Assembly (NCBI RefSeq): GCF_000760115.1
Contig: NZ_JNAS01000002.1
Coordinates: 1 to 64,000 of the forward strand
From: Prochlorococcus marinus str. SB
Lineage (GTDB): Bacteria > Cyanobacteriota > Cyanobacteriia > PCC-6307 > Cyanobiaceae
Direction of reading: 5' to 3'
DNA: 64,000 bases
The position numbers and the translations under genes were made by a program. The notes under the pieces were generated by a model. It ran no database searches, had not been told where the DNA came from, and saw nothing but the letters and a program-made list of their open reading frames with translations. Below, one piece after another: positions 1-4,234 of the stretch (position 1 is the first letter of the stretch; every line of letters begins with the position of its first letter).

Positions 1-372
1 GAAGACGATGATTATCTTAGAGGTGGAGATGATGGAGATGAATTATATGGAGAAAGTGGAGATGATTTATTAAAAGGAGAAGATGGCGATGATATTTTAG
101 TTGGAGGTTTAGGTAAAGATGATTTATATGGTGGAAGTGGTAATGATGTATTTAGATTAACTGCAGGAAGTGGTTATGACAGAATAAGAGATTTTGAAGA
201 AGGAGATAAAGTAAATTTAAATGGTATTGATAATAATCAACTCGGAGTATTTGACAGTGGCAAAAATATGAAGGTCTATCTAGATGAAAATAAAAGTGAT
301 TTGCTGGCAATAATTTATGGCTACAATTTATCGGATTTAAATGGTGTAGGAATAACAGATATTCTTGTTTAA
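1..372 (+). CDS. RTX/hemolysin-type calcium-binding repeat protein, C-terminal part
   Basis: Frame 1 is open from the window edge to a TAA at 370-372, so only the last 123 residues are visible. The first ~50 residues are acidic glycine-rich nonapeptides of the GGxGxDxLx type (GEDGDDILV, GGLGKDDLY, GGSGNDVFR), the parallel beta-roll repeat that binds calcium. A non-repetitive tail with a DRIRDF-type segment follows, common at the ends of RTX proteins, which are usually exported by type I secretion. The N-terminal effector or adhesin region lies outside the window, so the activity is unknown. It is on the opposite strand to the small genes that follow and is probably island cargo. Confidence 0.85.
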   Translation, partial: EDDDYLRGGDDGDELYGESGDDLLKGEDGDDILVGGLGKDDLYGGSGNDVFRLTAGSGYDRIRDFEEGDKVNLNGIDNNQLGVFDSGKNMKVYLDENKSDLLAIIYGYNLSDLNGVGITDILV

Positions 373-1080: not shown

Positions 1081-1098
1081 AGTAGTAAGCGTTTCATT
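1081..1098 (-). repeat. 18-bp direct repeat, copy A
   Basis: On the minus strand this reads AATGAAACGCTTACTACT, identical to the copies at 1530-1547 and 1727-1744. Here it follows immediately after the TAA of the 139-residue gene. The ATG opens a short frame (MKRLLLAPKLF...) that ends after about 22 codons and looks like a truncated signal peptide. Confidence 0.9.
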
Positions 1099-1517
1099 TA
1101 AGGATTAAAGTCTCTACATTTTGATCTTTCGTTTTCATAATCTTTGATAGCAGTATCCCATTTTGATAAATCTGCTTCTTTTCTAGAAATATATAATTCC
1201 ATTTGTGCCGAATAGGTTGCTGATTCAATCCGACTATTGAATGAAGAATTACAAAAAAGAATACTTCCAAATTTTTCATAGTCAGTAAAATCCCTATTCG
1301 CTGCATATTCAGCATTTGCCCTTTTCTTATCTAATGCTTTATATTCCAAATCCTCGATACTAGGTTTTGGGCGGAGCAAGAATGCTTTATAGTCAAAATC
1401 CTCAATACTAGGTCGCAGTAAGGATTGGTATGCTTGTGCATTTAGATATGAGAAAAGGGAAACACAAATAAGAACAACAGCAAATACTCCAATTAACCAA
1501 GTGTTAGTTTTATTCAT
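1098..1517 (-). CDS. small membrane-anchored or exported protein with internal repeat
   Basis: 139 residues. A single hydrophobic segment at about residues 8-28 (WLIGVFAVVLICVSLFSYLNA) is a signal anchor or uncleaved signal peptide. It is followed by two imperfect repeats of LRPxxSIEDxxYKA (about residues 34-63) and a charged helical remainder. I do not recognise the family. The gene sits exactly between repeat copies A and B, with its stop codon abutting copy A. It is probably part of the integrase-linked island and may face the periplasm. Confidence 0.65.
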   Translation of the reverse strand: MNKTNTWLIGVFAVVLICVSLFSYLNAQAYQSLLRPSIEDFDYKAFLLRPKPSIEDLEYKALDKKRANAEYAANRDFTDYEKFGSILFCNSSFNSRIESATYSAQMELYISRKEADLSKWDTAIKDYENERSKCRDFNP

Positions 1518-1529
1518 TAATTAATTACG

Positions 1530-1547
1530 AGTAGTAAGCGTTTCATT
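1530..1547 (-). repeat. 18-bp direct repeat, copy B
   Basis: Identical 18-mer on the minus strand. Its ATG opens MKRLLLVIN and then stops, so only the first codons of the signal-peptide cassette remain. It lies 12 bp upstream of the ATG of the 139-residue gene and downstream of the 58-residue gene. Confidence 0.9.
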
Positions 1548-1566
1548 AATTACATCATCATTAGTT

Positions 1567-1743
1567 TTAGTCTTCTGTATTTTTAGATGTAGTTTCTGTG
1601 TCTTCTTCACTTTCTTCTTCAGAAATATCTTGCGCAGGAGAATCTGCTAAGTCTATGAATCCAGCATTTATATCAGATGTCTCAGCATTAACAGCAATAG
1701 TTAAAGCGAGTGCTGCTAGTAGTGGGAGTAGTAAGCGTTTCAT
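1567..1743 (-). CDS. 58-residue secreted acidic protein
   Basis: Read directly from the minus strand: ATG at 1743-1741, TAA at 1569-1567. The first 20 residues (MKRLLLPLLAALALTIAVNA) are a textbook Sec signal peptide with a VNA cleavage site. The mature part is only ~38 residues and very acidic (SEEESEEDTE). The signal peptide is nearly that of the PDZ gene immediately upstream (MKRLLFPLISALTLSTAVHA), while the mature parts are unrelated. The start codon lies in repeat copy C. Function unknown; the acidic tail could bind metals or be a remnant of a longer protein. Confidence 0.65.
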   Translation of the reverse strand: MKRLLLPLLAALALTIAVNAETSDINAGFIDLADSPAQDISEEESEEDTETTSKNTED

Positions 1744-1744
1744 T
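1727..1744 (-). repeat. 18-bp direct repeat, copy C
   Basis: Third exact copy of the 18-mer. This is the only one of the three that leads into a complete signal peptide (58-residue protein). A diverged relative begins the PDZ gene at 2315. Confidence 0.9.
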
Positions 1745-1751
1745 CAGTAAT

Positions 1752-2315
1752 TTAAATTGAGGTTCCTTTTTTTTGATTTGGGGAAAGTTCATTTTCTGGA
1801 AAAATTTCTTTTAAATTTTCTGGAAAGAAAAACTCCAATTGTCTCCTTAAATTACCTTCATAAAATTTGTTTGGAACTTTAAAAGTATCTCTTACTAATT
1901 GAACATTTATTTTTTCCTTTTTACCTGCCTCATTTACTCTTAATAAGACTAACTTAATTGGCTTATCTTTTGGTCCTTTTATGAGAGAAACTGCTTCTGT
2001 TATACCCATTCCTCTCGTAGATTTCCCATCTATTTTGATAATTACATCATTTGGTTTAATGTCAGCGGAGGCAGCAGGAGAATCATTTATTACAGATTGA
2101 ATAGTTAATTCAGCAGTATCACTATTAAGAAAGAGCCTTATTCCAATCCCTGTTATTTCCTTATCTTTTCTGTGAGATAGATTTTTATTGGTTGTCACAC
2201 AACCTGCATAATCTCGTGCTTCTAAACATTTTTTATGTAATTCATCAGATATTCCAGCATGAACAGCAGTAGATAAGGTTAGTGCCGATATTAGTGGGAA
2301 TAGCAGTCTTTTCAT
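1752..2315 (-). CDS. secreted PDZ-domain protein
   Basis: 187 residues with a Sec signal peptide (residues 1-20, cleavage after VHA). A short cysteine pair follows (KKCLEARDYAGCV, about residues 29-41), then a PDZ domain at about residues 54-140 (GIGIRL, SPAASADIKPNDVIIKIDG, GPKDKPIKLVLLR). No protease domain is present, so it is a stand-alone periplasmic PDZ protein that might bind peptide C-termini. It starts 4 bp downstream of the DUF3764-like gene and 9 bp upstream of the 58-residue gene, suggesting co-transcription. The PDZ call is firm; the partner is unknown. Confidence 0.8.
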   Translation of the reverse strand: MKRLLFPLISALTLSTAVHAGISDELHKKCLEARDYAGCVTTNKNLSHRKDKEITGIGIRLFLNSDTAELTIQSVINDSPAASADIKPNDVIIKIDGKSTRGMGITEAVSLIKGPKDKPIKLVLLRVNEAGKKEKINVQLVRDTFKVPNKFYEGNLRRQLEFFFPENLKEIFPENELSPNQKKGTSI

Positions 2316-2318
2316 TTG

Positions 2319-2624
2319 TTAATCACAACAATCTTCCTTTGTTAATGAAGCAGTCCAAGAGGATTCCTCCATTGTTGATAAGTCAACTCTATGAGTTGCC
2401 ATCCAGTCACCATTTGCTTCAACAAACTTTTGAACATTACCTTCTGGAGCTTGATGAATAACAATTATTCTTTGAGGATCATCCTTGCTTACTCCTCTGA
2501 AAAGCGGCTTAATATCAAATTCTGAATGCCTTTTATCTGCTTCTGCACTATCAAATATTGCAGCCCATTCATCGAAAGTACTTTCAATTTTAAAAGTAAA
2601 CACGGAGGTAACTAAACAAGACAT
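2319..2624 (-). CDS. DUF3764-like small protein
   Basis: 101 residues, cytosolic by appearance (no signal peptide). The pattern TFKIESTFDEWAAIFDS, then FRGVSKDDPQRIIVIHQAPEG, then a WMATHRVD end resembles the DUF3764 family of small picocyanobacterial proteins, which probably adopt a ferredoxin-like dimeric alpha/beta barrel. The family assignment is from memory of its pattern and was not searched. Biochemical role unknown. It lies between the recombinase and the PDZ gene on the same strand. Confidence 0.6.
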   Translation of the reverse strand: MSCLVTSVFTFKIESTFDEWAAIFDSAEADKRHSEFDIKPLFRGVSKDDPQRIIVIHQAPEGNVQKFVEANGDWMATHRVDLSTMEESSWTASLTKEDCCD

Positions 2625-2676
2625 AAAAAAGGAGCTAATTGCCCCTTATTTTAGATCGACTGTCAATTACTAACTA

Positions 2677-3852
2677 TTATTGTTGGTCTAATAAATTTAA
2701 CGTCTGCAAAACATCTTGTTTGACATATCCCTTTTGATAAGTTGCGGTATGAACAGCTTCACTATGACCCATAAATTTTGATGCTGATGCTGTATTGATA
2801 TTCATGTTTTCAGTGCGATAACCATAAGCGTGTCTAAGGTCATATGCCTGAAATGATTGATTGGTTTTTTTAGCAAGCCATTTGGTATATCTTCTATTTA
2901 ATGACTTTAAAAATGCAGAATCATAATCTTCAGTTTTATCAATACTAAATTCCTTATATATATTCAAAATATCTAAAGTTCTTGCCCATTCCTGTTTTAA
3001 TGCTGGAGTGATTCTCCATTCTGATGGTTCTTCACTCTTGGGCACTGTCAAAACTTCAGCCATAATCTTTCCAGATTCTTCAAATGGTTTGATGCTCCAT
3101 ATTTCAGAAGTCCTAGTACCGAATACAAATTGAGCAGCTAATGCCCAACCCCAAACTGGGTCTTCTCTCAACAAACGAACATGATATAAATATTCCTCAT
3201 CTTTCAATCTTTTTCTGGATCTTTTCTTAGCATCATCCTTATAAGCCTTTTGAGTAGCTGTTGACCACTCCTGGAGTTTTTTCAGATTTGGTATTTCTGC
3301 AAACTTAGCTAATCGCAGAAAATGCTTTGCAGTATCCGCCTTCTTCTTTGATCCGGCTGGTGCTTTATTGGCAAGTTCAACAATATTTTCATAATTAAGA
3401 ATTTTATGTTTTTCCATTTTCAATAAATAACCTTCAATCTGTTTCCACCCAGCCATGTTTTGGTTATTGTTTTTGTCCTTATTTTCAGCACTCCAGAAAT
3501 CCTTTTCAAATCTTTTGATAATATCTCCTACTTTTCTACTTTCTTTGATTAACTCAACAGGCTCTTCATTCTTTTTCTCCCAATCACTCCATTTAAATAA
3601 TCCAGCCCTTTTTTCCTCCCCTAATTTTTCAGATAACCTTACTGCCTCTTTGATATTTTTTTGGTCAGCCTTTAATCCAATGGATACCCATTGTTGAATA
3701 TTCTGATTAGATTGACCATCTTTTGAAGGTAATGATGCCCTTAAAGCAAAAGCATCTTTCTTTATATATATAGTTACCCCAACTTTTTTTCTTTTTAATA
3801 CATCATTGGTTGCTGAAACTTTTGCCTTTAAAAGTTCAAACGGATTAGCCAT
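2677..3852 (-). CDS. tyrosine recombinase/integrase beside tRNA-Ser
   Basis: 391 residues starting at ATG (3852-3850). The C-terminal catalytic domain shows the tyrosine-recombinase set: the first arginine in FGTRTSEIW, then YDLRHAY with Arg340 and His341, MGHS with His363, and the nucleophile Tyr372 in HTATYQKGY. The N-terminal ~200 residues contain a lysine-rich core-binding region. The protein would cut and rejoin DNA at an attachment site, most likely in or beside the tRNA-Ser gene 210 bp away. It appears intact. The co-oriented small genes downstream (2624 to 571) are plausible passengers. Placement in the tycheposon recombinase family is an inference. Confidence 0.9.
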   Translation of the reverse strand: MANPFELLKAKVSATNDVLKRKKVGVTIYIKKDAFALRASLPSKDGQSNQNIQQWVSIGLKADQKNIKEAVRLSEKLGEEKRAGLFKWSDWEKKNEEPVELIKESRKVGDIIKRFEKDFWSAENKDKNNNQNMAGWKQIEGYLLKMEKHKILNYENIVELANKAPAGSKKKADTAKHFLRLAKFAEIPNLKKLQEWSTATQKAYKDDAKKRSRKRLKDEEYLYHVRLLREDPVWGWALAAQFVFGTRTSEIWSIKPFEESGKIMAEVLTVPKSEEPSEWRITPALKQEWARTLDILNIYKEFSIDKTEDYDSAFLKSLNRRYTKWLAKKTNQSFQAYDLRHAYGYRTENMNINTASASKFMGHSEAVHTATYQKGYVKQDVLQTLNLLDQQ

Positions 3853-3874
3853 TGTTCGGATGGTTTTTATTGGA

Positions 3875-3921
3875 GGACTAACCTCGGTGGACTAATTCTA
3901 ACTATTATGTACTAATCGGTG
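3875..3921. promoter_or_regulatory. repeated ACTAA/CGGTG motifs upstream of the recombinase
   Basis: GGACTAA occurs at 3875-3881 and 3889-3895 (14-bp period). ACTAACCTCGGTG (3877-3889) is echoed by ACTAATCGGTG (3911-3921). GTTCGGAT also occurs at 3854-3861, overlapping the region before the recombinase start codon, and at 4037-4044, just before the tRNA. Such clustered short repeats between a recombinase and its tRNA could be recombinase arm or core sites or an autoregulatory operator; this is inference. Confidence 0.35.
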
Positions 3922-4062
3922 CAAGTACACCTATATTCTGTCAACCAAAAAATGTTTTCATTTTATAACTCCTGAGAACCCCTGCAGTAAGGTAAATTAC
4001 TTGACTATGACTGACTTCTTATGATATATATTAATGGTTCGGATACAACTGAATAACCCGTT

Positions 4063-4149
4063 GGAGGGGTGGTCGAGTGGTTTAAGGCTCTAGTCTTGAA
4101 AACTAGCGTATCTGCAAGGGTACCGTGGGTTCGAATCCCACCCCCTCCG
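4063..4149 (+). tRNA. tRNA-Ser (anticodon TGA)
   Basis: 87 nt. The acceptor stem GGAGGGG pairs with CCCCTCC and the discriminator is G. The anticodon stem-loop is CTAGTCTTGAAAACTAG with anticodon TGA. A long variable arm of class II type (serine) follows, and the T arm is GTGGGTTCGAATCCCAC. No CCA is encoded. The tyrosine recombinase is on its 5' side, and conserved chromosomal genes are on its 3' side. Confidence 0.97.
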
Positions 4150-4234
4150 TTCTAAAAAAATCAAGTGAAGTTTAACAAAATAATATTAACGCCTTTTTGG
4201 TCCGTTTTTGTTAAAGTATATTTTTATTTGGTCT

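Follow-up and report, generated by a model that had tools for sequence, protein, structure and literature searches.

An 18-bp repeat as a likely portable gene-junction module of Prochlorococcus genomic islands

Why should the same 18 bp stand between genes that otherwise have nothing in common? The question is raised by a locus of Prochlorococcus marinus str. SB, where the sequence AATGAAACGCTTACTACT has three exact matches, all on the minus strand, in the window (the whole 64-kb stretch of DNA analysed here). Shuffled sequence would be expected to hold 0.07 copies even with 3 mismatches allowed, and no further copy with up to 3 mismatches was found in the whole 64-kb window. The features concerned are the following.

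1081-1098, minus strand: 18-bp junction copy 3, an exact match that contributes, with its first base, the last A of the TAA stop in the 139-aa gene
1098-1517, minus strand: 139-aa ORF (MNKTNTWLIGVF...), a gene cassette flanked by copies 2 and 3
1530-1547, minus strand: 18-bp junction copy 2, an exact match at which the 58-aa gene meets the 139-aa gene
1567-1743, minus strand: 58-aa ORF (MKRLLLPLLAALALTIAVNAE...) from the ORF list, the shared signal peptide MKRLLLPLLAALALTIAVNA followed by a short acidic mature part
1727-1744, minus strand: 18-bp junction copy 1, an exact match at which the 3' end of the PDZ gene meets the 58-aa secreted-protein gene
1752-2315, minus strand: PDZ-domain protein, 187 aa (PF00595, E=4.4e-12), with a signal peptide of the same family
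2299-2316, minus strand: decayed 18-mer with 5 mismatches (AATGAAAAGACTGCTATT), recognised by its sequence, at the start of the PDZ gene
2319-2624, minus strand: DUF3764 protein, 101 aa (PF12594, E=1.6e-37), the next gene past the second junction repeat
2645-2666, minus strand: second junction repeat (TTGACAGTCGATCTAAAATAAG), lying after the stop of the integrase and before the start codon of the DUF3764 gene
2677-3852, minus strand: tyrosine recombinase of the island, 391 aa (PF00589, E=0.002, under the curated cut-off)
4062-4150, plus strand: tRNA-Ser, the island border (ARAGORN; Rfam RF00005)

Along the minus strand the order is thus tRNA-Ser (itself on the plus strand), tyrosine recombinase, the repeat TTGACAGTCGATCT (2666-2653), DUF3764 gene and PDZ gene, followed by an 18-mer, the 58-aa gene, an 18-mer, the 139-aa gene, an 18-mer and other ORFs. 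A preliminary description, made from the sequence alone, had placed the three copies at these positions, and exact matching confirmed it. It had also read one copy as leading into the 58-residue signal-peptide protein and the other two as stopping after about 9 and 22 codons, which translation bears out: the ATG at 1546 (copy 2) reads MKRLLLVIN and then a stop (9 codons), and that at 1097 (copy 3) reads MKRLLLAPKLFKSWLNILVIFV and then a stop (22 codons). Two further claims held as well, namely that the PDZ gene at 2315 carries a diverged version of the signal peptide (5 mismatches to the 18-mer; relatives of this gene in L014, L226 and L227 have the 18-mer intact) and that the 139-residue gene sits exactly between two copies (1517-1098, its stop sharing a base with copy 3).

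Neither the 58-aa ORF nor the 139-aa gene matched any Pfam family. The latter occurs in 70 of the 266 genomes of the genus, in many contexts; a phage origin was rejected, with 0 matches among 50,697 phage records, as was a known RNA family at the locus, the tRNA alone scoring above the Rfam threshold. Two observations may be recorded here in their own right: the 139-aa gene contains an internal 33-bp duplication (1333-1413, minus strand, 91%) that yields two PSIED-Y-KA repeats, and positions 1-372 (plus strand) hold an incomplete ORF, cut off at the start of the contig, whose Gly/Asp-rich GGxGxD-like repeats resemble an RTX-type calcium-binding protein.

Had the 18-mer been unique to this locus, the view of it as a recurring module would have failed. 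It is genus-wide: 171 of 266 Prochlorococcus genomes (one per species, many of them single-cell assemblies) have at least one exact copy and up to 12, often clustered within a few kb, while the reversed sequence used as control gave 0 matches in every one of the 266. The rest of the family has it in 5 of about 184 genomes, all five of 1.7-1.9 Mb, it was absent from all 23 genomes searched elsewhere in the class, and among 2.9 million viral contigs only 4 contain it, the one looked at (L067) having a tRNA-Ser and an integrase. Six matches in unrelated organisms were set down to chance. This distribution is shown directly, and so is the position of the repeat at gene junctions. Among 268 sites with up to 2 mismatches, 9% fall within ORFs, whereas random points taken from the same DNA do so in 68% of cases, and the upstream neighbour has the orientation of the site in 221 cases and the opposite one in 21. 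The stop codon of these 221 sense genes upstream ends at site base 1 (TA/A) in 80 cases, at base 2 in 13 and at base 5 (TGA inside AATGA) in 39, and the ATG of the site is the start of 104 downstream genes; the 18-mer therefore gives both a stop and a start codon. Downstream of many copies lies non-coding DNA or a gene for a non-exported protein, without any signal peptide, and the non-coding copies retain the exact sequence. The preliminary description, which had seen in the repeat the start of a signal peptide, must be amended accordingly: the module is wider, and many copies join genes that have no signal peptide.

Its expectation that copies would be tied to gene boundaries and to different downstream genes was met, and the upstream genes differ too. 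All three window copies are mosaic junctions. The PDZ 3' end found at copy 1 is joined to other sequences in L023, L046, L344 and L357, and the signal-peptide start on its other side is joined to other genes elsewhere. At copy 2, the 139-aa gene start follows an 18-mer with other upstream genes in L087, L094, L125, L287 and L288 and again in L289, L301, L305, L306 and L309, at least 8 other upstream sequences being joined to it outside the window. At copy 3, the 3' end of the same gene has at least 10 different downstream partners elsewhere, one of which, in L094, is a signal peptide-ubiquitin-autotransporter gene. When the 150-bp flanks of 276 sites were clustered, 156 upstream and 110 downstream families came together in 222 pairings; because the loci were gathered mostly around the 18-mer, these counts are not an unbiased census. 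Where the upstream family is common and the downstream one differs, homology mostly ends 18-23 bases from the site start; where the downstream family is common and the upstream one differs, it mostly ends 16-21 bases from the site end. Particular cases are five loci in which 900 bp upstream, at 98.8-99.9% identity, end at site base 18-23 and give way to total divergence, a 1024-bp site-to-site segment present in L033 and missing from L028, and a 913-bp site-to-site unit that is 99-100% identical in 15 genomes with neighbours that vary on both sides.

Breakpoints concentrate at the repeat. Of the ends of blocks of 96% identity (n=1155), 15.6% lie within 5 bp of an 18-mer versus 1.1% of random points (14-fold), and 15.4% lie at TTGACAGTCGATCT versus 0.9%; the statistics refer to island stretches and not to whole genomes, from loci mainly around the 18-mer, the random points being drawn from the same loci. 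These pairings and breakpoints are shown; that the 18-mer is a recombination junction at which neighbours are swapped is a likely reading of them, no such event having been observed in the laboratory. Three other readings may be weighed against it. First, the 18-mer could be a selected translation or regulatory signal (stop/start coupling, signal-peptide start), the shuffling of its neighbours being ordinary island turnover. It does give neighbours their stop and start codons, and it encodes a signal-peptide start, predicted to be functional in secretion, in about 200 ORFs; however, the 14-fold enrichment of block ends, the 99.9% identical flanks that end 0-5 bp from the 18-mer and the exact sequence kept in non-coding copies make this reading very unlikely. 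Second, the many dispersed copies could be those of a short mobile element of MITE or REP-like type that inserts at the ends of genes, but the two flanks of a copy are not contiguous elsewhere, each flank is joined to many others, and neither target duplications nor terminal inverted repeats were seen, so that this possibility is highly unlikely. Third, since many of the genomes are single-cell assemblies, the joins could be chimeras formed at the repeat during amplification or assembly. Mosaicism is found, however, among genomes of no more than 6 contigs as well: of their 75 sites, mosaic partners exist for 63, and for 38 of these they lie in other genomes of that kind, and for this reason chimeras are unlikely to account for the pattern. 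Identical junctions moreover recur in several genomes, and the strict orientation and stop/start geometry likewise speak against artefact, which is highly unlikely.

Many of the sites also begin a predicted export signal. Among 211 ORFs of at least 45 aa that start at an 18-mer, 199 have a hydrophobic N-terminus or core and 156 an A-x-A-like cleavage motif; the features of a Sec signal peptide are met (a K/R n-region, a hydrophobic core and an A-x-A-like motif within about 20-30 residues), secretion itself being a prediction only. The canonical LPLLAALALPTAVNA-like peptide is found in 100 ORFs belonging to 39 unrelated mature families, and DNA identity between families is high through codon 20 and falls to about 0.2-0.4, the background, from codon 22. 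The proposal that the 5' end of a secreted-protein gene recurs as a module on different exported proteins is thereby supported. A search with the peptide that made no use of the 18-mer, and is in this respect unbiased, recovered two alternative 5' ends, MKRLLLPLL (the 18-mer) and MRKLLIPLL (the second repeat). Signal peptides are demonstrably exchanged: (i) the PDZ protein has both 5' ends, in L220 and L239, on mature parts that are 98% identical; (ii) the KEPTYKQIVSQCK protein has a standard signal peptide in L217:1543 and a lipoprotein signal (LIFGC) in L332:8831, the mature parts being 94% identical; and (iii) three unrelated signal peptides, the shared module among them, are found on the ubiquitin-autotransporter protein. 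As a separate observation, this last gene (L094:584-1861, plus strand), a Prochlorococcus island gene, encodes a signal peptide, a complete ubiquitin domain that closely resembles the ubiquitin of eukaryotes (PF00240, E=1.3e-28) and the beta-barrel of an autotransporter (PF03797, E=2.6e-26); five more genomes (L391-L395) hold relatives with the two other signal peptides, and the same barrel carries other passengers in further genomes.

The 18-mer is not alone in this behaviour. Of 87 near-complete genomes from the genus, 62 contain an exact 20-mer of the second repeat, which is non-coding and unrelated to the first, and this second repeat shows a partner promiscuity like that of the 18-mer, a further amendment to the preliminary description, since TTGACAGTCGATCT shuffles genes likewise. 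Outside the window, 269 contexts hold TTGACAGTCGATCT, usually followed by a hairpin and a T-run and then directly by a start codon, and the stem varies (GGGGC...GCTCC or GAGGG...CCCTC). Some tyrosine-recombinase genes of the islands terminate within a junction repeat: the stop of the L383 recombinase is the TGA of an 18-mer, and those of the L382 and L344 recombinases are the TGA of TTGACAG, the L382 relative, 97% identical to that of L383, ending in the second repeat instead of the 18-mer. The tRNA 3'-end sequence TTTGGGAGCACTAGGTCGCAGGTTCGAATCC (L285, about position 1918, and other loci) is a third widely joined island repeat, which probably represents an attachment site.

We thus propose to regard the 18-mer as a portable module for gene junctions in the genomic islands of Prochlorococcus, exchanged by short-homology recombination, and we consider this the likely explanation. 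Its left end would give the stop codon of the upstream gene (TA/A or A/TGA), and its ATG with the next 19 codons would give the downstream gene its start and the predicted Sec-type signal peptide MKRLLLPLLAALALPTAVNA; other copies would lead into non-coding DNA that contains TTGACAGTCGATCT and a hairpin resembling a terminator. With the module present in hundreds of genes, incoming DNA and resident islands would be identical over 18 to about 60 bp where genes meet. At the 18-mer, homologous recombination over such short homology may then swap neighbours with reading frames intact, and mature proteins may gain, lose or trade the common signal peptide at the cleavage site: as genes are cut and re-joined at the 18-mer, unrelated proteins would come to share one export signal. 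Among copies of the 913-bp unit whose upstream neighbours differ, mismatches per site amount to 0.002 in the gene body and 0.049 over codons 13-20 of the signal peptide, and to 0.17 over codons 7-12 and 0.13 within the 18-mer itself. Crossovers at several points along the common stretch follow from this pattern. A linkage scan inside the 18-mer points to a diffuse swap, position 0 going with the upstream gene and position 17 with the downstream one. As crossovers spread through the 18-mer and the signal-peptide codons, short-homology recombination is favoured over a fixed-point integrase. That general homologous recombination is the agent, as well as the donors of the DNA, is inferred, the spread of crossovers lending it indirect support only, and the recombining enzyme has not been identified. 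An identity of 18-23 bp is near the lower limit commonly given for RecA-dependent exchange, and this counts against our explanation.

The remaining rival is integron-like: the 18-mer would be recognised by a dedicated (tyrosine) recombinase as the place at which gene cassettes are inserted and excised. The units are indeed cassette-like, gene and site pointing the same way; a layout of tRNA-Ser, recombinase, second repeat and same-strand array of 18-mer genes is common to the window, L344 and L347; and the second repeat lies 0-25 bp past the recombinase stop in at least 18 of 48 recombinase ORFs. Several points nevertheless argue against it: (i) crossovers are scattered through the 18-mer and as far as 40 bp into the signal-peptide codons; (ii) the linkage swap within the site is diffuse; (iii) the consensus junction has no inverted repeat or hairpin beyond shuffles (z -1.0), and no palindrome is visible in the 18-mer, so that an attC-like or palindromic reading was rejected; (iv) two unrelated repeats behave alike; and (v) G015 has 7 exact sites and, as sole PF00589 match, a near-universal 389-393-aa recombinase. 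With the queries used, 15 of 41 island regions, window included, showed a tyrosine recombinase inside the stretch that was fetched; a strict need for an adjacent recombinase is thereby rejected, and yet the involvement of one cannot be excluded for the same reason. Because recombinases are near in some islands, often with the second repeat directly after them, a site-specific contribution is kept as a rival, although an unlikely one. In a bolder version, which we also hold to be improbable, the 18-mer, TTGACAGTCGATCT or both would be recognised by the tRNA-linked tyrosine recombinase, which would build up arrays of genes for small secreted proteins, the picture being blurred later by homologous recombination; if it were true, a recombination site would double as start codon and signal peptide.

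The portable junction module that we favour has relatives among known systems. Short conserved boundary sequences in lambdoid phage mosaics have been proposed as targets of homologous recombination (PMC3029335), and the likeness is close: an identical short sequence stands at the junctions of unrelated modules, and breakpoints of recent homology are concentrated there. The 18-mer differs in lying in bacterial chromosomal islands, genus-wide, and since this boundary encodes a stop, a start and often a complete signal peptide, it is predicted also to change protein localisation. Integron cassettes (attC/attI, IntI) are likewise compact same-orientation one-gene units in arrays with a repeat at gene ends, and a recombinase gene is nearby in some 18-mer islands; but the 18-mer has no attC-like palindrome and no fixed crossover point, and it sits inside the start of the next gene. 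Tycheposons are tRNA-associated cargo elements of Prochlorococcus with a tyrosine recombinase, 4-200 kb long, with a tRNA at the border (PMC10872708). The window array similarly adjoins tRNA-Ser and tyrosine recombinase (2677-4150), its far border lying outside the window; close relatives of the window recombinase adjoin tRNA-Ser in 13 other genomes, and a tyrosine recombinase beside a tRNA at the border is also seen in L344, L347 and L360-L372. The 18-mer, however, is an internal single-gene junction that also occurs far from any detectable recombinase. Coleman et al. (2006) reportedly described PRE1, a 48-bp Prochlorococcus island repeat; it resembles our repeats in being short and concentrated in islands, and the second repeat with its hairpin measures about 48 bp, but identity with either repeat has not been compared. 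Prochlorosin leader peptides are a conserved N-terminal module on hypervariable parts in the same organisms; these are precursors of modified peptides, whereas the present module is a signal peptide on unrelated proteins. Neither the 18-mer nor the shared signal-peptide module was found described in the literature searched, which did not include Coleman 2006, Kettler 2007 and Hackl 2023.

For Prochlorococcus, an ocean cyanobacterium among the most abundant photosynthetic organisms, the module would provide a concrete and testable answer to how single genes may be exchanged in hypervariable islands without broken reading frames. It would be a bacterial counterpart of exon shuffling, with one DNA-level export signal on at least 39 unrelated proteins, and swaps of the signal on one mature protein are documented, as in secreted and lipoprotein forms or in the three found on the ubiquitin-autotransporter. 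Both repeats, the 18-mer and its partner, can already serve to mark cassette boundaries and to follow exchange rates in natural populations.
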